21,841 nt of DNA from Saccoglossus kowalevskii. Its lineage: Eukaryota > Hemichordata > Enteropneusta > Harrimaniidae. How positions within the stretch are numbered: position 1 is the stretch's first letter; each line of letters begins with the position of its first letter. The notes under the pieces were generated by a model, which made no database searches, had not been told where the DNA came from, and saw only the letters and a program-made list of their open reading frames with translations. The position numbers were made by a program, and so were the translations under genes. The DNA is taken from positions 188,503-210,343 of the forward strand of contig NW_003156245.1 in the NCBI RefSeq assembly GCF_000003605.2. The letters are read 5' to 3'. Shown in pieces: positions 7,947-21,841 of the stretch.

Positions 7947-8690
7947 ATGTCAGGAACACATGACACAATACTGGAAGATTCAGTCCGTAAAGCAGCCAGA
8001 AATGTTCTAGAAGATTCGAAGTCCAAATGGTGAGTCTGTCATAAATGAGACAATAGAACTGACGTCACCAGTAACTACGTTGTTGGTGCACCGTGCAAGA
8101 AATGTCGAGTTGATTTTACCGACTTTCGACTCGCATGCAGATATTCAAGAGTTGAAGAACGAAAAGGTTAATAAGACTGAAGTCAAGGATCTAAAAGCGT
8201 GACAAAACGACTTGGAAGATTGACTACGTCGTAACAATTTGATATTTTATAAGATTCTCAAAAAGTCGGAAATGGGTGATTGTTCACAGTTTATTCTATA
8301 TTTTATGAAAAACCACCCGGAGTTAAACAGTGACGTAGAAATCGAACGGGCGTATAGAGTTCCAACATATTTTATACCAGGGAGGAAAGCAGCCCCGTCC
8401 AATATGTGTATCATTTCTGCGTTTCCAGCACAAAGAAAATGTTCGAAAAAATGTTGCGTAGTGTTTGGTGGACAAACCATTTCAAGGAAATAATAAATTT
8501 ATTGCCGAAAATTTGTGTGATGCAACACGTAAAAACAACTTGTTCCTATTACGCTGTGACAGTTAAAGCGTGAAAAATCTGGAAGTCGTATTTCAGTATT
8601 GAAATATCATGAAGATGCACGTATTAAAACATTCCAGAGATGACGGAACTAGTTTATTGTGTACTCTACTATGTACGTGTGTTTAACTTG
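7947..8690 (+). pseudogene. LINE ORF1 remnant (L1/Tx1-type nucleic-acid-binding protein)
   Basis: This is the broken first open reading frame of an L1-like retrotransposon, which normally encodes an RNA-binding trimeric chaperone. A start-like ATG at 7947 opens MSGTHDTILEDSVRKAARN, then the frame shifts. From 8032 a second frame continues with a coiled-coil-like stretch (LKNEKVNKTEVKDLKA), two stops, and then the hallmark LRRNNLIFYKI and DVEIERAYRVP of the RRM-type core. The C-terminal part (KMLRSV, CDA-like) is present in other frames. At least two internal stops and two or three frameshifts make it non-functional. It lies upstream of the ORF2 remnant of the same element. Confidence 0.75.
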
Positions 8691-9449
8691 ACATTTTTTT
8701 CTTTTGGAAAAACGTGTTATTTTGTCCAGTAGTGCAAGTGTAATATGGGCACAGAGTACGTGATTTTTATGAACTTTTCTAGCCGCAGTGATTGAATATA
8801 ATGTTTTTGATTTTCGTTAATTATTCACGGTTGCACATAGTGTCTCTTGCAAAAAAAAAAAAACGTTTCTTTTATCATGTTAATTTAGCAAGTTTTTATT
8901 AGGGTGATCATATTTCGGTACATATCCTTCTGTAAATTAGTAGCGAAATTAGTTTATTTTGTTAATTATCAACCGAAGTGATCTGTTTTTGTGTGTTTAG
9001 AAGTAAAAAATAAACTTATTTTCAGTTTAAAAATAAAAAAGTGGAAAAAACCACTACCAATTTGAAATAGTATGGCTACAGATATTAAAATAATATAAAA
9101 TTTACAGAGCATTTAAAATTTTCTCATAAAATATTTTCAAAAGTTTATAATCTTGGTATATTATGGCGTTTTCCTTTTCGTATGAATTATAATTGTATTT
9201 TGAGACAGAGCCGGCATGTGATCATTAGACAAGCATTCGCTTACTATTGTTTTGTTTTTGACGGCATCGCCAAGATTATTTTTCATTCTTATCCTTGTTT
9301 TTTTTAAGTTTTAACGAATATTTGTTGGTAACTTTGGTTTTGATAATGGCGAAATATTGTTTTTGTTGTTTGTTGTTCAGGTCATGGGTTGGGGCATTAT
9401 TATATGCAATAATCATTGTGAAAATAATGTTTGAACTGGCGATACTAGA
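8691..9449 (+). other. AT-rich spacer between LINE ORF1 and ORF2
   Basis: About 760 bases separate the recognisable LINE ORFs, far more than is usual for L1-like elements. The spacer contains a run of 13 A at 8851-8863. It could be a later insertion with its own poly(A) tract, or heavily decayed element sequence. No coding signal was seen. Confidence 0.4.
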
Positions 9450-12420
9450 ATGTTATCTTTAAATGTCAGGGCCTGTTCCACTAGTGAAAAAAGGAGAGAT
9501 GTGTTCCGCTGGTTAAAAAAATAAAGAATGTTCCATTTTTTGCTTACAGGATAGTCATTGTCGTGTTGGAGAGGAAACAAAATGGGAATTAGAATGGGGA
9601 GGAAAATGCCACTTTAGTGCATATAAAGGGGATTCGCAAATATAGAGGGGATGCATGCGGTAATTTTCTTTTTCTGGATGTAACAATTCAAAATCACTGT
9701 TTTACATTGTGTAGCATTTATGGTCCTAATATTGATAACCCAACTTTTTATGAAGAAATCACAAATATTCTAGACGATTTTGGTAATGTAAGTATTATTT
9801 TATGCGGCGATTGAATGTATTTTCAGACTATAATTTAGATTCTAAAGGCTATAATACCTGTAATAATTCAAAAGCAAACACCAAAATTGAAAAAAATGTA
9901 AGAAGTTTTTGATCTGTGTGATATTTAGAGAGATATGCACCCGGATTCTTTTCGTTTCACTTGGCATAAAATAAACCCTTTGAAGCAAAGTTGTGTAGAC
10001 TATTTCCTTGTGACCCTGGACATTGCTACGTTTGTTAAACAATCCGATATATCGTATTAATATCGCTCAGATCATTGTGTAATTACTTTGTATTGTAATT
10101 TTGCTTTGCAAAAGACGGGAAGGGGGTTTTGGAAATTATATACATCAGTATTACAAGATAGTGCATAAGTAAAAGAAACAATCGAAGAAGTTGTTGGTCA
10201 GTACAAGATACAAGAAATGAATGTTTTGAACAAATGTGAGTTTACTATTAATCCTCAATTATTTTTTGATGTATTAAAACTACAAATACGAAGCATGTCC
10301 ATTGCTTATAGCTCGCACAGAAAAAGGGAACAGGACGAACAATTTAGGATACTTGAAAAAAAAAAATGAGCTGGAAAACAATTTACATGTAAATAATGCT
10401 GTTGTCTTGGAGGTGAAAAAAAAATCAATAGTAAATCTGCATAGTTTGAAAACCCGTGGGGCTATTATTCGTTCTAAAGCGCAATGGGACGAGCAGGGGG
10501 AAAGGGGTACCATATATTTTTTAAGTTTGGAAAAACGAAACTATATTGATAAAACAATAACCCATTTGAAAACAACCAGTGGTATTGATATTACTGACCT
10601 GGTTAAAATTTTAAAGGAGGAAAAGTTGTTTTACGAATCATTGTATCATTCCAAACAAGTTGTTCCCATGGATGATCTTTTCTCGGTTAATTTGCTACTG
10701 TTATCCGTAGAACACCGGGAATAGTGTAATGGGCCAATAACAGAAGCAGAAATGCTTGAATGTTAAAAAATATGGAAAAAGATAAAACGCCCGGCAGTGA
10801 TGGATTTCCCTGCGGGTTTTATAATTTTTTTTTGGAACAATATCAAACTGTTTCTGGTAAATGCTATAAATTATTCATTAGAAGTTGGTGGTAAGTTTAT
10901 TTAACAAAAAAGGGCATTATGCCTAAAAAAGGCAGAGATAAATCTTGTTAAAAAATTGGCGTCTTATAATGTTGCTAAATACTGATTACAAGTTAGCCTA
11001 GGGATGTACTGCAAAACGTATAAAAAAGGTATTACCAATATTGGTTAGTGATTCTCAGACTGGTTATGTAAAAGGCAGATTTATTGGTGAAAATACCCGT
11101 TATCTATACGACTTATTGGATTACACAGAGCATAATAAAATCCCAGGTCTTCTCCTGTTAGATTTCGAAAAAGGCATTTGATACCATAGAATGGAGTTAC
11201 ATTGGAGCAGTAGTTGATAAATTTGGTTTTGGAAACTCTTTAAAAATGGATTAAATGCTTTTATAATGATTCTATTTCCTGTGTGATAAACAGTGGTCAT
11301 GCTAGCAAACTGTTTAATATATCTCGGGATGTGAGACAAGATGATTCATACTTGCAATTGAGTTGTTAAGCCAAGCTCTCAAAACAAAGAAAGGTGGATT
11401 GAATATGCCCGATTTGTTATTTTTGTCAAAATCATTAAAAGCTAGTTAGGTAAAACGGTCGTCAGAAAAGAATGAGCACTCATGGATGATACTCTTTCAG
11501 GCAACTTTTGGTTATTCCAAAATTTGTGAGTCTGATAACAAATTTGTTGAGAGATGTAAAAAAAGAATTCAAAACTATTTTTGACGTGAAATCTTAGACA
11601 TTTGGCAAAATTGCATTAAACAAGTAGACACAGAGCCAAATATACAAGGCCAAAACTTATGGCTAAATTCAAATATTAAAATTAAGTACGAGTATGTGGA
11701 TAAGAGAAGTTGGCAGAGAAAAAATATTATGATTTAATTACTAAATGAGGACGGCTTTTTCTATGAATATAGCGAGTTGCAAATTTCTTTAATAATAATT
11801 TTCAAGATAAGTCTAAATCACATAAATTCTCGTACAAATGCCTAATGACAAATCAGGATCAACCATTAAAAGTACACACAAAATGGGAAGAAAGGCTAGA
11901 AATTCAAATTCCAGCCCAAGACTGGAAATTGGTCTATAACTTATATAATCATTGTACTATTGATACGAGACTACGTGCTTTTCAGTTTAGGTATTTGCAC
12001 AAAATCATTTTTCCCAACAACACTTTATGTTTATGGCAAGTAGTAGACTGTTCTTTAATGTACTTTTTGCAATGCAGACACAGAAAAAGTTGAACATCTT
12101 TTCATCACTGGGGTAAATGTTTGCGATTATGGAAAAGCTGAACAAACAAAAATGTACTATTATCAGATAGAGATATAAGTTTTGATCTTTATGTTATAAA
12201 GGATTGTCTACTTTTAAATCATTTTACTTTGATGTGCAAACAGCATATTTATTCTGCTCGGCGTAAAAAATGTGAACCAGACGTGATTAGCCTAAAATAC
12301 CAGATGAAAAATGCTTATTTAATAGATAAAGAAATTGCTTTTAACACAGATAGCATTGCACGATTTAACAACAAGTGAAATTGCTTTAAAGTTGATACGT
12401 TGTAAACATTGCCGTTTTGA
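9450..12420 (+). pseudogene. LINE ORF2 remnant (endonuclease / reverse transcriptase)
   Basis: This is the decayed second ORF of an L1/Tx1-like LINE. The apurinic-like endonuclease part starts MLSLNVRACSTSEKRRDV at 9450. It contains FTLCSIYGPNIDNP, a GDWN motif broken to GD-stop at 9812 (consistent with loss of one G), and the closing SDH motif at 10067-10075. The reverse transcriptase follows: DSQTGYVKGRFIGENTR near 11050, then motif A as LLLLDFEKAFD at about 11149-11180 with a one-base frameshift. Soon after RQDD (about 11340) the frame jumps to KTKKGGLNMPDL at about 11385. The YADD-containing palm segment is therefore missing. A C-terminal FCNADTEKVEHLF segment sits near 12064. The element is dead, through many stops and an internal deletion. 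Confidence 0.85.
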
Positions 12421-12571: not shown

Positions 12572-13083
12572 CATGACAATTGTCAATAATGCACGTGTGA
12601 CCTCTTCGCTATGTGAACGGGGGTCACTATCCTGTTGGAAATGGAAATTCACGAGACTTAGTGGCGATGGTATCATTTCGTTTTGCAGGATATCTCAATA
12701 TTTTCATCGGTCGTCGTCGGTACACGGACTTGCGAACCTACGTCGGTAGCCGAAATACATCCCTACACCATGATGATTCCACCACCAAATGTCATCGTAG
12801 ATTTAACACATTTCAACTCGTACTCTTCATCTGGTCTCCGACATACAAATAGTCTTCCACGGCTACGAATCATCTTAAACTTGGATTAGTCCGACATGAT
12901 AATTTGAGCCCACATCTCACGGATATGTTGTCCTGCAAATTGCAATCGCGCTGTGATGTGTCGAGCTAGTACTTTGTTTTGTTTAGCAACACAGCTAAAA
13001 TTGGCAAGCAAATCACCGGTGGTGTGAAACCGATTCGCTAAACTAGACCGGGTGAGTAGCCGGTCTTCTATTGCCGATTGAAT
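12572..13083 (-). pseudogene. Broken Tc1/mariner-family transposase
   Basis: The minus strand encodes a decayed Tc1-like transposase, a DDE enzyme that cuts and joins DNA at TA sites. From 13083 an open frame gives the end of the DNA-binding part (RLQFAGQHIREMWAQI), then SD-stop-SKF, where the D at 12891-12889 is the likely first catalytic residue. RRPDEEYELKCVKSTMTFGGG and GCISATDVGSQVRV follow, with a stop where the family has W. After a frameshift, LQNEMIPSP and FQQDSDPRSHSEE carry the second catalytic D (12631-12629). The region with the third acidic residue is absent, as is most of the N-terminus. About 170 codons remain of a usual length near 340. Confidence 0.75.
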
Positions 13084-13207
13084 CGTATGGAGCTATCAGA
13101 CATACACATACTCCTTGCGATTTTTCTCTTAGAAACTACATTTGTGTACTGTGCTTCAACTTACGGCATGACTCAATGTTTGTAAATACAAAATTATGCA
13201 TCTGATA

Positions 13208-13440: not shown

Positions 13441-15561
13441 ATAACTTGATTGTATGTAGGGTCATAATATAACGTATCACATAGTATATTCTTGCTCTAT
13501 GTACTTGACAGAGGTACATATTATATATTTGATAGTGACACTCACACAACATAAATTAAATTTATTTCGTTTTTCATTTTTATTGACGAAGTAATTGTAC
13601 ATTGCTATTCAGTCTATTAATAAATATTGTCATTTATTACTATTTATTTATATTTAAATTCTGATATTCTAACTTCAGAATTGCTCAGGTATACATGGCT
13701 TAGTTTTCAGTATACTTTGTATCGTAATAATGATTTTGATATAGGAAACTAAAATGTCCACCAATATATATCCGCTTTTTACTGCACTGCATCATATGTT
13801 TTTTTCTGAAATACATTTTCTATATAATTTGATATATTTTATATGTATTATGCTAATAGGCATAATCAATTTCATGACGTTGGAGACACAAATACTTCAA
13901 TGAACGTTTGAAACGATTATTGTCCGATGTTACATGTATCATTGATTATACACAATATAACCGATCGAAACGTGATCAAGCTATAATACAACGAAATTAA
14001 ATTATGGGTTGATATATAATTGATATTAAATGTATATAATTTAATATATCGGTAATTCATCTTATATAGCAGCCTATAAGTATTCTAGTCAGAAATATAT
14101 CTTGCTAATTCCAAGTTCCCAGTATCTAATCAATGTGATAAATATGACTTATGTATCACATCACGAAATATAAGTAAACTAATACATTTAATCTTAAAAT
14201 CTCAAAAGTAATATATCTATAACAATCCTGGTAATCCCATAAATAGTTATATGTGATGTTTAAATGTTCTTGCAGCACACATTATATTTAACCACTTCAC
14301 TAAAATGTATACTAATTTCTAATTGTGTATGCAAAATGTAACCATAGTATTTTTTAAATCCAATCCCAGATAGACATATGATCTTTAAACTTGTGACTCT
14401 GTCGTTGTTAGATACTCTATTCTATGAAATAAAAAAGACAAAACAATTTGTTACGATACATATAGATGCAGGTAAATATGCACCCGAACTCATAGAACAT
14501 GTTTTTTTTTTTGTGTAAATATTTATTTGATAAAAGAACAGTAATCAACCTGTGTGAGAATGTTCGTTTACTTAACCGCGGATATCGTGTATTACGCGAG
14601 ATCTCGCTGTCAATTGATCTCGCCACATACACATGCACGCCACATCTCTCGACTTGTGTTTTACATTTGCTCAGGCATGTTCATATCAACCAAGGTTCAG
14701 TTCCTCATGAAACTTCCACATGACGTGTCTAGCTTATCTTCGAAAGAGCTTACTTTAATGTTATAGCAAAACCAGTCCTCTTGTAATAATGTGTCAGTAT
14801 GATATCTACATATTTGGGAATGTAGTATTTAACAATGATAGTATAATTATTTAGGGGAAAAACAAGACAAACAAAAATCACAGCTTCGAAGTGGTGTCAG
14901 AACATCGCTTGCGATTCGACAAATGTGAAACTAATTTTGGAGTATTTTCATGCTTGATGATAGTCAATAGTGGACAATATATCTCAACGTCAAATTTTTC
15001 ACTGACAGACAGGTATTTTTATATTGAAATATACAGAGCTATTTAAGTTAAAAAAACAAACCATTCGATTTTTTGCATTAGACTTTCGAACCGTGCATTT
15101 CATGTATTTCGCGGGTAAAAATAACCGGCTACTACTAAGTATAAAATATATTTACCATAATAGATTGTTGGAACAAATGTTGGTGAATCAGATGTAAAAA
15201 CTGTAACGATAAATAACAACTGTTTTGGCATAGTTACGTACATTAGTAACATAATATAATGTTGTATAAATATAATGTATATATTGCATAAATAATATTA
15301 AATTGAAAATACGTATGGAAGATTATTAATATAGTGAAACTGCATTATTTAAAAATAACTGAACCCCGTTATAATTGATGAGAGTCTTGCACAACGAAAA
15401 CAAGTGTTATACTAATCACACTTTAAATACACTCATAATTACAAGAGTCTGTAAATACAAATAAATCAAGGCTAACTGTAATCGACAATATACCTTTAAT
15501 TTTAAAATACTCTGCCATACATATGTATACATATGCAAATTATGTACTTGAATTTAGAAGC
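13441..15561. other. AT-rich stretch downstream of the kringle gene
   Basis: Very AT-rich DNA with no exon that I can support on either strand. I looked on the minus strand for further phase-1 exons of the kringle gene and found none that convince. A minus-strand ATTAAA at 15500-15495, about 60 bases past the possible stop codon, could be a polyadenylation signal. The 74-codon open frame at 14499-14723 has no recognisable content. Confidence 0.35.
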
Positions 15562-15827
15562 TTACGTACCACAGTTATCGAATGGGTATCCGACATCACA
15601 GAGTTCCCAACGTGTACCAGGTTCTGTTGTGTAACACCATGTTTGTATTTCTCCATCAGGGTTTCTACAATAGTTGTGGTTACCAAGGCCAGCGCCTGGG
15701 AAGTTAGCTGGAGTCCTGGTGTGAGAGTGAGGAGTTTGGTCTGACCATTTCTGACAAGTTTTACCGTGAATGGTTGTGTTAACTGTTCCACGATAGTCAC
15801 TTGCATATTGTTCCTTAAAACATTCGT
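15562..15827 (-). CDS. Kringle gene exon 7 (kringle domain 2, possibly terminal)
   Basis: This exon encodes a second full kringle, with cysteines at model residues 201, 223, 252, 263, 275 and 284. Landmarks are ASDYRGTVNTT, TPHSHTRTPANFP, HNYCRNPDGE, WCYTTEPGTRWELCDV and a final DNC. The usual aromatic before the fifth Cys is Leu here, and the second Asp of the anionic pair is Glu. The acceptor is tttgttttag (phase 1). At its end TGTG|GTACGTAAG can be read as a donor (exon ending at 15570). Read through, it gives Gly-Thr then TAA at 15564-15562, so this may be the last exon. I could not find a following exon. Confidence 0.9.
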
Positions 15828-18800
15828 CTAAAACAAAGCGAGTATTTTTTTAGAAAGAAGAATGTATATATAATGTCTTACTGACTAAGCAACGCACCCA
15901 TTGCAGTGACTGTTTTAATAATTGTTTCTACACATTCACATTGATGCACAACAAACTCACCTGTGTCAATAACGAACATAGTTGTCGTTTCCTTTGTTGT
16001 AACGCTTTCTTCTGTTGTACCCATTGTTGTAATACTTGCTTCCGTTGTTTTGTATGTTACAATACCTGGAATATACAAAAATTCCCTATTCTTACGTCAT
16101 GATCTTTTACATCCCAGAAAATCTCTGTTTGGAAAAGTACTGGTGGGACATTCCATTTCAAATATATATTGCGTATTCTATTTTGATATAGACCATTTCA
16201 ACCTATATATTTTATGAGAGCTCAAACATTACGCTAGAAGTAAAACTATTTTGTATCAGGCACAACCCTCATTTGGTCAGGTGATCATTAAGTAAATTAA
16301 TCCCTTGGTCATTTATACTAAACTTGTGAAGAAATATGATGACTGCCCACCGAGTAGTTTAGATTGACTTGGTTTGCGCTAATATCGAATTGCCTGAAAA
16401 TATTATAACGATATTGTTTCTGCTTGTTTGCAGTGCAGTTGGTAATTCAAATGGTCAGCAATCAGCTTTGAACTGAATTACTCTTTTTCAGACAACACAG
16501 TTACATTGTACATATGATTAACGCAACCTCTTTTTGTTTGCTTAAGTGTGGTTCAAATTTTATCCAAAATAACAACCTTTGCTTTGGTTGCGTTGCATAT
16601 ATTATCGAAATTAAGAAAGAACATGCGTTGCAGCGTCCGTGGGCAGGGATGTCTAAACAAGATATTATCTTATATCGAGTCAATCGGCTCAAATTTAATA
16701 ATGGAATGAACATCATTCGGGATTTATGTAAAGATATACACAAAATACGGTTATGCAAATTATCAATGATGTGTTTTATACTAATTTGCTGTTTATCTCT
16801 GTTCCCATAAATTCTTAAGTGCCCTGTTTCCTGTGACACAACCATTCTCAGACTCGCCTTCCAAAAGGAAAAACGTGATTCCGGTATTTTTTTACGAAGC
16901 AATGTAACCAATCCCACCATGAATACAATAATCATTCATATTTATGAAAAAGTTAGATTGGGTATTTTATTCTGAAAAACCTTAACTACATCCAGAAACC
17001 GGTTTGAAAGATATACACTATATTATTTGTAGCATTGCGAATATCGTACATATTTATGTTTTACATTAAATGACTCAAATAAAATCTGAATAAAAAAACA
17101 AAACATGCATGCATCTTAATGGGCTAATTCGAGGGATATGCAATACAAATACGAGATGATCAAGAAACAAGGCATTTCATAACAGAACATGCATACTTGC
17201 CAAATAATAACAATTAATAAAAGTAATAAATACAAAAAGAAGAAAAAGGAAACAAAATTAAACAGAAATTTTTTATGCAGCATATTCAACTTTCATTCAT
17301 AAATAATGTACGGAGAAACAATGAATTATAACCTATATTACAATGTGTAGTAGTATTTATAGATCACCTACCTGGTGTACTCACGTGTTCAGTTGCTATA
17401 GTAGTGTAAACTGGGTTCTCAGCTGAAGTAGAACCTGTATCAACATATTCAACATTGCGCAAGGCAAATTGTAAATACGAATCGTAAATAATAACATATA
17501 TTTATTGATATATAATAATAATAATTTGTTTTTCATTGGCCACTAACAATGACATTGACAAGTGATTCCCCTTATTTGAAGAAGGTGTAATTAAAGGGCG
17601 GTGGTTGTAGAGAGGCGCATGTGCAAAGAACACAGATTACAACTTGTACTATTAATCAACGCGTATAAAATAATACAAGAATTCAGATTAGGCAATTCAT
17701 TGAATGAATGACTAGAACACATCAAAGACTAAACAAATTACTTCGTGACAATATTGAAACTCAGAAAGCCATGTCTATCAAGGCTAATACCGAACATGCG
17801 GAGCGTAACGAACACAAACCAATAATTTACCTAGTATTACTGTAGTTGGTTCTAGTGTAGTTCCACCTGAAATGTGTAATACATGTATTACCAGTGTAAT
17901 CAATTAAATCGGTAAACAGTTATATTTGTAAACATTGTTGTATCATATAAGGTTATTACGAAGATACCTCAAAGTATGCACGAAGACAGTACAGCGGCAA
18001 TATCGACCGACGCGCAGCCTTATTATTATACATCTTTTTCTTCCAATGTTACATCATGGGAATGCCGAAAACCAAAAAGTTTAGAACAGAATCAGCGAAC
18101 TTATTTGTGTGGAGTCCGGTCAATTCCTGGTGGCAGCCATGTTTGTTTTTATTATTAGAGGACGCTTACTCGCGTAATCATACCATATTTGGAATTCGCA
18201 TTTCCTAATATGGTAGTATGAAAATACCCCATAAAATACCGCAAAATTACGGCACGCTGTAACTTATGACATTACGGTGACAGAATGTATAATAATAATG
18301 GTTATTCCTACCACAATCATCACTCGGTGAGCCGATATCACAATATCCCCATCGCGTATCAGGATCTGTCGTATAGCACCACACACCCACGTCACCGTCA
18401 GGATTTCGACAGTAGTTGTGGTCCCCCAGACCAGTTTTTGGATAATTTTCCGGCGTTCGTGAATGGTAATGAGGTGTTTGAGCTGTCCATTTGGCACATT
18501 CGTCACCAGTTCTTGTTGTATTCACTACACCGCGGTAGTCGCTTCCATCGACCTCTTCATAACACTCAGTTATATCTTCAATAAAGGCAAGTATAATGTA
18601 TATAATATATATATAGCGTCATCCCAAATGTAAACAATAAACAATTATAAGTTCAAATGACTAACCAAATTCGTTGTCTGTGTCCCGGAGTACAAGCACT
18701 AATACCAGCACCAGTATAGCAATAACTAGTGCAATAGCAGCTACAACTATTCCGATGACTACGAAATTTGAGCATTTTTCCTGAAGCAAAAAACAAACAA

Positions 18801-19300
18801 TATATATACATCAATGAAAAATATACATGGCAATTTTTACATTTTAAAACGCGGTAGTCGTCGCGCTGCAAACGTGGGACATTTGTGGTGGTAAACATTG
18901 ATTTCCCACAATCCAATGCGCTCTTCAAATGAAAATTACAAGTATGAAGTTTGACCTGGGTGCGACTGATTACCGCCGGTGATTCCTTGATACCTTCGAA
19001 TAACTTGAAAATTACCTAATTGAAGCTTGAAAACGTCTCACTTTGTACTCGTTGATCTGCACAACAGTCAAAGTCGCCATCTTTGTTTATATCAGACCCA
19101 TATATCTCGCACATGCGCAGCGCGACGACTACCGCGCTTTAATGAAATACACGGTTGCAGAGAGGGGTTTGCATAACACGGTCTTTTGTGCCTAAATATT
19201 AAAGAATGTTCGCTGATATTATGTCCGTATTAAAGAAACAGTTTATTAGCAACGTTGTTATGACAGCAGATTGTATTAGAATACTCACCTTTTGAGCCAT
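15562..19300 (-). CDS. Type II membrane protein with two kringle domains and Thr-rich stalk (whole gene model)
   Basis: Seven exons join in frame: 19300-19289, 18780-18666, 18575-18312, 17866-17831, 17434-17372, 16065-15961 and 15827-15562. If translation reads past the last donor-like site, TAA at 15564-15562 gives 286 residues. Residues 1-9 are a short N-terminus, about 10-36 a single membrane segment, 47-130 kringle 1, 131-198 a Thr-rich stalk, and 201-284 kringle 2. With no cleavable signal peptide and basic Lys residues before the membrane segment, it should sit as a signal-anchored protein with the kringles outside the cell. Kringles bind proteins, often through lysine side chains. Junctions after exon 2 are all phase 1, as is typical of shuffled extracellular domains. 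No protease domain is present. More exons downstream cannot be excluded. Confidence 0.8.
15961..16065 (-). CDS. Kringle gene exon 6 (Thr-rich stalk)
   Basis: This 105-base phase 1-1 exon lies between the acceptor tttgtatattccag and the consensus donor ACAG|GTGAGTTTG. It encodes 34 full codons, of which 13 are Thr. They include IVTYKTTEASITTMGTTEES and a following VTTKETTTM, with several TT pairs that could carry O-linked sugars. It has no cysteine. It precedes the second kringle exon and joins it through a split Asp codon. Confidence 0.7.
16066..17371. other. Intron 5 of the kringle gene with an unexplained long open frame
   Basis: This intron of about 1.3 kb contains the longest open frame in the window: 144 codons on the minus strand (16935-16501), with an overlapping 98-codon frame on the plus strand (16514-16810). 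Neither has a motif I recognise. The minus frame starts MIIVFMVGLVTLLRKKIPES and holds scattered Cys and basic residues. It may be a chance open frame, or a remnant of a mobile element or retrocopy inside the intron. Confidence 0.25.
17372..17434 (-). CDS. Kringle gene exon 5 (Thr/Ser-rich stalk)
   Basis: This 63-base phase 1-1 exon is bounded by the acceptor atatgttgatacag and the donor CCAG|GTAGGTGAT. It encodes STSAENPVYTTIATEHVSTP, with split Gly codons at both ends. It is rich in Thr and Ser and has no Cys, as expected for a stalk. It joins in frame with the exons on either side and could be skipped without shifting the frame. Confidence 0.6.
17591..17828. mobile_element. Diverged MITE copy in intron 4
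   Basis: The left end reads TTAAAGGGCGGTGGTTGTAG followed by GCGCATGTGC. The right end contains CGAACATGCGGAGCG then ACGA. Both match the ends of the 299-bp MITE at 18844-19142 (TTAAAGCGCGGTAGTCGTCG and GCGCATGTGC in its right-end reverse complement). The copy is about 240 bp and the right TTAA has decayed. It lies within an intron of the kringle gene, up against exon 4. Confidence 0.45.
17831..17866 (-). CDS. Kringle gene exon 4 (short Thr-rich stalk)
   Basis: This 36-base phase 1-1 exon lies between the acceptor acacatttcag and the donor CTAG|GTAAATT. It encodes GTTLEPTTVIL, with one Gly codon split at each end. Thr and Pro content suggests an extended, O-glycosylated linker following kringle 1. 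The donor lies right beside the end of a diverged MITE at 17591-17828. Confidence 0.55.
18312..18575 (-). CDS. Kringle gene exon 3 (kringle domain 1)
   Basis: This single phase 1-1 exon of 264 bases encodes a whole kringle. The six cysteines fall at model residues 47, 69, 98, 109, 121 and 130 and should pair 1-6, 2-4 and 3-5. Family landmarks are clear: SDYRG, PHYHSRTPENYP, the HNYCRNPDGD block, WCYTTDPDTRWGYCDI. Compared with plasminogen kringle 4, the lysine-binding positions look preserved: Arg where K35 lies, Asp-Asp for D55/D57, Trp62, Tyr for F64, Arg71 and Trp72. Acceptor ctttattgaag and donor TGTG|GTAGGAAT bound it. Binding to lysine is an inference from these residues. Confidence 0.92.
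18666..18780 (-). CDS. Kringle gene exon 2 (transmembrane segment)
   Basis: This exon of 38 codons plus one base is preceded by the acceptor tttgcttcag and followed by the donor GTTAGTCAT (phase 0-1). It encodes EKCSNFVVIGIVVAAIAL, then a run rich in Leu and Val, ending LRDTDNEF. The hydrophobic stretch is about 27 residues long, with Lys before it and Arg-Asp after it. That suits a signal anchor rather than a cleaved signal peptide, since no small-residue cleavage motif follows. The Cys at residue 7 could be palmitoylated or lie at the membrane face. Confidence 0.75.
18844..19142. mobile_element. 299-bp MITE with 22-bp terminal inverted repeats and TTAA ends
   Basis: The inverted repeats at 18848-18869 and 19117-19138 match at 21 of 22 positions (left AACGCGGTAGTCGTCGCGCT, right complement AGCGCGGTAGTCGTCGCGCT). 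Both are flanked by TTAA (18844-18847 and 19139-19142), as expected of a TTAA target-site duplication. That target is typical of piggyBac-type elements, though the terminal bases are not the classic CCC. There is no coding capacity. The element fills most of intron 1 of the kringle gene. Confidence 0.8.
19289..19300 (-). CDS. Kringle gene exon 1 (start codon, MAQK)
   Basis: The first coding exon holds ATGGCTCAAAAG followed by the strong donor GTGAGTATT. The start context (A at -3, G at +4) is good. The start was chosen because the exon joins in phase 0 to the membrane-segment exon and puts two Lys residues just before it. Upstream sequence is AT-rich, with no TATA box that I would call. A further 5' untranslated exon is possible. 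Confidence 0.7.
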
Positions 19301-21751: not shown

Positions 21752-21841
21752 ATTATATTATATTATATTATATTATATTATATTATATTATATTATATTA
21801 TATTATATTATATTATATTATATTATATTATATTATATTAT
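21752..21841. repeat. (ATTAT)n microsatellite
   Basis: Eighteen perfect copies of the 5-bp unit ATTAT run to the window edge, so the true length is unknown. Perfection over 90 bases suggests a young or still-changing array. It has no coding potential. Confidence 0.97.

Follow-up and report, generated by a model that had tools for sequence, protein, structure and literature searches.

The window analysed here is a stretch of 21,841 nucleotides from the hemichordate Saccoglossus kowalevskii (contig NW_003156245.1, hereafter C4566, positions 188503-210343; C4566:188503-210343), bounded exactly by two runs of N of 51,989 and 15,757 bases. On its minus strand it carries a gene with two kringle domains. 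The genes of this contig were labelled A, B, C and D, and the two-kringle gene of the window is gene B. For comparison the genome (572 Mb, 4830 contigs) was searched and the loci L001 to L008 were read, of which L004 and L005 lie on contig C4317 and L001 on contig C4132.

Gene model and kringle domains

Joining the minus-strand exons E1, TM (transmembrane), K1, S1, S2, S3 and K2 and reading to the first stop gives a protein of 286 residues. The length stated in an earlier note on this DNA was thereby rebuilt exactly from seven exons, whereas its seven junctions are reduced to six. All seven exons are open, their phases are consistent and every intron between them has GT-AG ends. The features of the locus, in window positions, are as follows:

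19289-19300, minus strand: E1, first coding exon (MAQK), with the phase-0 donor AAG/GTGAGT
18666-18780, minus strand: TM exon EKCSNFVVIGIVVAAIALVIAILVLVLVLVLRDTDNEF, predicted signal anchor, phase 0-1, 38 residues, with paralogue exons
18312-18575, minus strand: K1, kringle 1 in a single exon, phase 1-1, six cysteines, lysine-pocket residues complete
17831-17866, minus strand: S1, Thr-rich stalk exon GGTTLEPTTVIL, phase 1-1
17372-17434, minus strand: S2, stalk exon GSTSAENPVYTTIATEHVSTP, phase 1-1, with a better-scoring alternative acceptor before 17422
15961-16065, minus strand: S3, Thr-rich stalk exon GIVTYKTTEASITTMGTTEESVTTKETTTMFVIDT, phase 1-1, with similar repeats in the stalk of gene C
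15570-15827, minus strand: K2, kringle 2 in a single exon, phase 1-1, six cysteines, Glu for Asp57, donor G/GTACGT
15562-15564, minus strand: TAA, stop codon of the earlier note, most likely intronic and within the donor GTACGTAAG
15156-15200, minus strand: S4, candidate next exon VFTSDSPTFVPTIYY, phase 1-1, which suggests that the gene continues

The two kringle exons had been described as clean and as holding six cysteines each, and this description is borne out. Pfam Kringle (PF00051) matches the protein model with an E-value of 9.9e-48, only two kringles lying above the cut-off (the model sequence used here carried one extra glycine), and in the profile search of the genome the single exons score E 1.7e-22 and 1.3e-21. 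AlphaFold2 was run on K1, accompanied by 20 other kringles of the genome (21 of the 23 considered below, L007a and L008d being left out); for K1 the five models range from 74.6 to 91.8 in mean pLDDT (predicted local distance difference test), the best being 91.8. Foldseek gives plasminogen kringle 4 (K4; 1pk4) as third match to the K1 model, with a root-mean-square deviation of 1.1 Å and 56% identity, and the epsilon-aminocaproic acid complex 2pk4 lies at 1.2 Å. The assignment as kringles thus draws on a profile match above the curated cut-off, on six cysteines and, for K1 only, on the modelled fold.

The lysine pocket we take to consist of cationic residues at 35/71, Asp55, Asp57 and aromatic residues at 62/64/72 (plasminogen K4 numbering). 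K1 of gene B has the complete set (R35, D55, D57, W62, Y64, R71 and W72), and K2 has the same residues except for E57; in the alignment plasminogen kringle 2 likewise has Glu at this position. Judged by these positions, both K1 and K2 carry the residues of a lysine-binding kringle. With D or E allowed at 57 and F or Y at 64, all seven positions are kept in 8 of 23 kringles (A.K1a-c, A.K2, B.K1, B.K2, C.K2 and L007c), the 23 being those of C4566 and L001-L008 and not a sample of all kringles of the genome.

The ratio of nonsynonymous to synonymous substitution rates (dN/dS) was estimated for 13 single pairs of kringles according to Nei-Gojobori, many of them with high dS; three pairs were saturated and the other ten gave ratios between 0.14 and 0.31. 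For K1 of gene B the values were 0.14-0.15 against A.K1a and A.K1b, 0.20 against C.K1 and 0.31 against L005, and for K2 they were 0.19 against A.K2 and 0.17 against C.K2. On these estimates the kringles evolve under purifying selection. A pseudogene or an assembly mosaic, as the large N gaps of the scaffold and the possible decay of the neighbouring gene C might suggest, is extremely improbable in view of seven open exons, GT-AG intron ends and dN/dS ratios well under 1. We regard gene B as a real gene of a real family.

Start exon and membrane segment

A start codon and one membrane segment had been proposed upstream of the kringles. Both were found again in E1 and the TM exon, and paralogues back this N-terminal structure. 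The segment comprises 25 uninterrupted hydrophobic residues with a best 19-residue Kyte-Doolittle mean of 3.65, preceded by K4 and K6 and followed by R and then by D, D and E. Stop-free 19-residue stretches with a mean of at least 3.6 occurred in 1.0%, and with a mean of at least 2.9 in 1.7%, of 1000 random 400-nt pieces drawn from the window itself, pieces covering the TM exon of gene B included.

In tblastn searches the TM exon found a homologous exon at four other loci, each time on the 5' side of a K1-type exon: on contig C4566 in gene A (at 127699, 46% identity) and in gene C (at 230978, 53%), and on contig C4317 in L005 (54%) and L004 (44%). L001 has a diverged hydrophobic exon at the corresponding position, which hydropathy and splice signals revealed and alignment did not. 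At these five other loci the hydrophobic exon lies no more than 400 nt upstream of the K1-type exon, and among the loci read the two are paired in six out of six K1-type genes, gene B included. The label K1-type was assigned by similarity before a tree was available; the tree groups eight K1-type kringles at a support of 95/94, only 3 of its 21 inner branches being well supported. A start exon precedes the TM exon in gene C too (MTVK, donor GTGAGC), at a distance of 546 nt compared with 508 nt for MAQK in gene B. The start-exon pattern occurs twice across both strands of the window, E1 being one of the two occurrences.

Hydropathy, flanking charges and conservation among paralogues agree with a predicted type II single-pass anchor, and the N-terminal reading is right as far as the sequence can tell. 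Cleavage of the hydrophobic segment, by which the protein would be secreted as a kringle decoy or matrix protein, is consistent with the N-terminal position of the segment. We nevertheless consider secretion improbable, for 25 uninterrupted hydrophobic residues exceed the span of a typical signal peptide, and the best 19-residue hydropathy amounts to 2.9-3.65 in the five TM-exon copies measured and to 3.04 in L001.

The 3' end of the gene

We reject the protein of 286 residues as complete because its stop lies in a predicted splice donor. The TAA is read within TGT GGT ACG TAA, and the same bases form the donor G/GTACGTAAG. The contig has ten kringle exons, and nine of them, all but C.K1 (TGT AATAAG), show a phase-1 GT at the homologous position. 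K2 of gene A, which is 72% identical to K2 of gene B, has no stop at this position; a stalk exon candidate and then a third kringle come after it. The 286 residues are most likely a truncated model.

A candidate for the continuation is S4. The window was scanned for symmetric phase 1-1 exons rich in Ser, Thr and Pro by splice sites and composition, which is not a domain search, and seven rows were obtained on the minus strand: S1, S2, S3, three nested variants and S4. S4 sits 369 nt beyond K2, and with the thresholds applied the window holds no other candidate of this kind downstream of that exon. For A, C and D the minus-strand scan gave 18, 3 and 18 rows, nested ones included. On the plus strand the scan returned no row in the window, one in 11.4 kb (A), one in 2.95 kb (C) and none in 15.7 kb (D), and from this rate of 2 in about 52 kb 0.014 chance matches are expected within 370 nt. 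Since S4 had first been spotted by eye and the thresholds were loosened afterwards (a summed splice-score cut of 5 had dropped S4 as well as S1), the scan is supportive, not blind.

The protein might also truly end with DNCGT, K2 being its last exon. An in-frame TAA follows directly after K2, K2 of gene C runs into an in-frame TAA in the same way, and the splice scores of S4 are modest. Against this stand the phase-1 GT shared by nine of ten kringle exons, the position of S4 shortly downstream, and K2 of gene A, which lacks the stop and continues into a stalk exon and K3; an ending at K2 seems quite improbable to us.

The end of the gene was not located because no further family exon was recognised in the remaining 15.2 kb of the window. 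Downstream of K2 in the window, the kringle profile search of the genome gave no third kringle, tblastx gave no exon similar to those of genes A and C (rows kept: minus/minus, above 30 bits, no internal stops), tblastn with the lectin and Cys-rich exons gave no such exon, and Pfam gave no domain on five open reading frames (ORFs) searched out of the many listed. A micro-exon encoding DSCNYECI and a stop near position 15450, picked out by eye as a possible last exon, was dismissed, as nothing similar was seen by eye after the kringles of the paralogues. Two ORFs were likewise discarded as downstream domains, one at 1273-1530 that had no Pfam match and one at 2207-2401 that was judged by eye only.

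The earlier note had also described the protein as free of a protease domain. No trypsin motif of the GDSGGP or TAAHC type was found in the readable sequence of the contig (101,471 bases other than N), nor in L001-L008, and Pfam finds kringles only, so that the claim stands for the readable contig, while the true 3' end probably lies beyond the model. NCBIfam, a prokaryotic library, gave no useful match. Type II transmembrane serine proteases combine an N-terminal signal anchor and extracellular modules with a C-terminal trypsin domain, which defines them; gene B shares the predicted anchor and the extracellular modules, whereas the trypsin domain was not seen in the model or the readable contig. 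With a 3' end beyond K2, perhaps even beyond the window that abuts the 51,989-base N run, gene B could in principle run on into a protease or other catalytic domain and encode a type II transmembrane protease with kringles. Given the lack of trypsin-type motifs in the sequences named, and given that genes A and D continue after their kringles into stalk, Cys-rich and lectin exons, we hold this to be very improbable.

Kringle gene family and proposed role

The layout of gene B had been considered without match in any named family. However, gene B is part of a multigene family of the same genome, and a protein of comparable layout, Tmed-krg1, has been published (PMC9229212). At E <= 0.001 the kringle profile matches the genome 86 times, spread over 34 contigs, and 77 of these matches exceed the curated cut-off. 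Nine contigs with four or more matches account for 52 of the 86; all these counts refer to single exons and are thus lower bounds. On contig C4566, exons were assigned to putative shared transcripts by order, strand and phase. Gene A reads TM-K1-K1-K1-K2-K3 on the minus strand, followed by stalk exons and a Cys-rich exon, gene C reads TM-K1-long Thr stalk-K2, also on the minus strand, and in gene D, near the contig end, K3 is followed by two Lectin_C exons, with eight stalk exon candidates ahead of the first and nine between the two. By this comparison gene B is a member of a partly tandem family, the members of which differ in kringle number and stalk length. The two Lectin_C exons of gene D (E 2.3e-07 and 5.9e-10; L022:2263-2646 and L021:6906-7319, minus strand, C4566:242646-242263 and 237319-236906) suggest kringle-mucin-lectin fusions in the same cluster.

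The same type II architecture could instead belong to receptors of innate immunity or self/non-self recognition that bind to microbial surfaces through kringle, lectin and Cys-rich modules, shuffled among genes lying in clusters. The abundance and clustering of the kringle matches, the neighbouring kringle of gene D with Lectin_C exons behind it and the pocket residues that differ between members would all fit such receptors. Diversifying selection, however, was not seen in the ten kringle pairs that gave dN/dS ratios, and we consider an immune role rather unlikely.

Kringles are known mainly from the proteases of clotting and from growth-factor proteases as well as from a few type I receptors. 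Plasminogen K4 and apolipoprotein(a) kringle IV (1pk4, 2pk4, 6rx7) resemble the K1 model in fold, pocket residues and sequence (50-58% identity). Plasminogen and apolipoprotein(a) are secreted, and plasminogen carries a protease domain; unlike gene B, they have no N-terminal transmembrane segment. PIK3IP1 is a type I membrane protein with a single kringle, whereas gene B has two kringles and an N-terminal transmembrane segment. Kremen 1/2, likewise membrane proteins, have a kringle but no protease. They belong to type I and carry a signal peptide, a kringle, WSC and CUB (PMC3927609). Gene B differs from them by its N-terminal anchor and its two kringles, and Pfam finds neither WSC nor CUB in the model. 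ROR receptors are membrane proteins with one extracellular kringle, which is preceded by a Cys-rich region, a cytosolic tyrosine kinase following the transmembrane segment (PMC2772990). The model of gene B, complete on its N-terminal and not on its C-terminal side, has neither the Cys-rich region nor the kinase. Kremen, ROR and PIK3IP1 thus fail as matches for the predicted protein on topology or domains.

Among the papers listed by our searches of the open PMC literature, which took in neither subscription papers nor animal sequence databases, only Tmed-krg1 of the flatworm Theama mediterranea resembles the layout of gene B. According to its description, it is specific for anchor cells and was predicted to reside in the membrane; it has six kringles, SignalP finds no signal peptide, and the predicted extracellular part comprises residues 29-1091, with a second predicted intracellular region thereafter (PMC9229212). 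Its length is 1357 or 1367 residues (table versus text), and the passages that describe it mention no protease. Knockdown led to a non-adhesive phenotype, with three individuals per group checked, and the authors, who did not localise the protein, suggest that it retains cohesive proteins rich in lysine on the cell surface (PMC9229212). Compared by description only, the two share a predicted N-terminal membrane segment, several kringles and a proposed hold on lysine-rich ligands; they differ in kringle number, six as against two, and in the second predicted intracellular region of Tmed-krg1. Gene B would be a variant among the known membrane-anchored kringle proteins, and by analogy we propose that it may work like Tmed-krg1.

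With somewhat better than even confidence, we favour a type II single-pass surface protein which would bind lysine-rich ligands and so act as a tether or adhesion receptor. About ten cytosolic residues (MAQKEKCSNF) would precede the 25-residue signal anchor, the N-terminus staying inside. The extracellular part would consist of kringle 1, a short mucin-like spacer that is rich in Thr, Ser and Pro and presumably O-glycosylated, and kringle 2, with probably one or more further spacer exons before the C-terminus. K1 and perhaps K2 would hold lysine side chains or C-terminal lysines at the cell surface, the ligands possibly being secreted, matrix, mucus or microbial proteins. As a cytosolic part of about ten residues is short for a signalling tail, we infer tethering as the more plausible function. 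The earlier picture of a signal-anchored type II protein with two kringles on a Thr-rich stalk and a competent lysine pocket holds at the level of exons and residues, while its topology and its binding are predictions.

Several observations weigh against this proposal. The exons of gene B were read from genomic sequence alone and the C-terminus was not located; splice scores are low for the TM donor (-0.1), the K1 acceptor (0.7) and the S2 acceptor (-1.8). Constraint on the TM exons, with proportions of nonsynonymous (pN) and synonymous differences (pS) of 0.29-0.34 and 0.48-0.54, is weaker than in the kringles. No start exon was found for gene A within the 8 kb searched, nor upstream in L004, L005 and L001, where 1251, 1286 and 359 nt were scanned; a looser scan of L004 yielded a weaker candidate (MAGS). 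Gene C is a weaker witness because it may be decayed, its K1 being without donor GT and having lost pocket residues. Finally, in 15 of the 23 kringles at least one of the seven pocket positions is altered, and lysine binding is therefore not the role of every member.

More broadly, gene B might represent an expanded family of animal surface receptors with a type II kringle-mucin-lectin design, in which symmetric phase 1-1 exons were shuffled behind a shared signal-anchor exon and in which kringles, not immunoglobulin or lectin domains, became the diversified recognition module; we offer this as a tentative possibility that may well prove wrong. N-anchored kringles with a lysine pocket, in relatives joined by further kringles and perhaps C-type lectin domains, would show the kringle in use as a gripping or recognition unit of the cell surface. 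At the genomic level such a family would parallel the adhesion protein of the flatworm, and it makes lysine binding without catalysis directly testable.

Some features of the neighbouring genes and of the window may be added. The three K1 exons of gene A are similar, lie in tandem with similar spacers (C4566:127486-126179, L010) and show a dS of 0.15-0.33; by these measures they are a recent internal triplication. Downstream of the gene A stalk lies the Cys-rich exon GCYYHDHPHAIESLEG... (L009:6631-6837, minus strand, C4566:116837-116631), for which no Pfam match over the cut-off and no meaningful PDB match were obtained. K1 of gene C (L021:526-783, minus strand) has lost pocket residues, contains a one-residue gap and lacks a GT where the donor is expected; gene C is possibly in decay. 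In L006, exons at 767-1090 and 2302-2667 around a kringle look EGF-like and WSC-like by eye, and this locus may represent a gene of the Kremen type in this genome.

Within the window, the introns of gene B contain interspersed repeats at 17942-18297 and 18832-19074, copies of which lie at 227.2-227.9 kb of C4566 (92-95% and 79% identical) and, with 77% identity, at the contig end. ORFs at 8224-10724 on the plus strand, opposite to gene B and perhaps within its intron, resemble degenerate LINE (long interspersed nuclear element) pieces by eye. At 12889-13092 on the minus strand there is a weak transposase-like match to HTH_Tnp_Tc3_2 (E 0.029, below the cut-off). From about 21755 to 21841 an ATATT pentanucleotide tandem repeat extends to the window end, where the N run begins.

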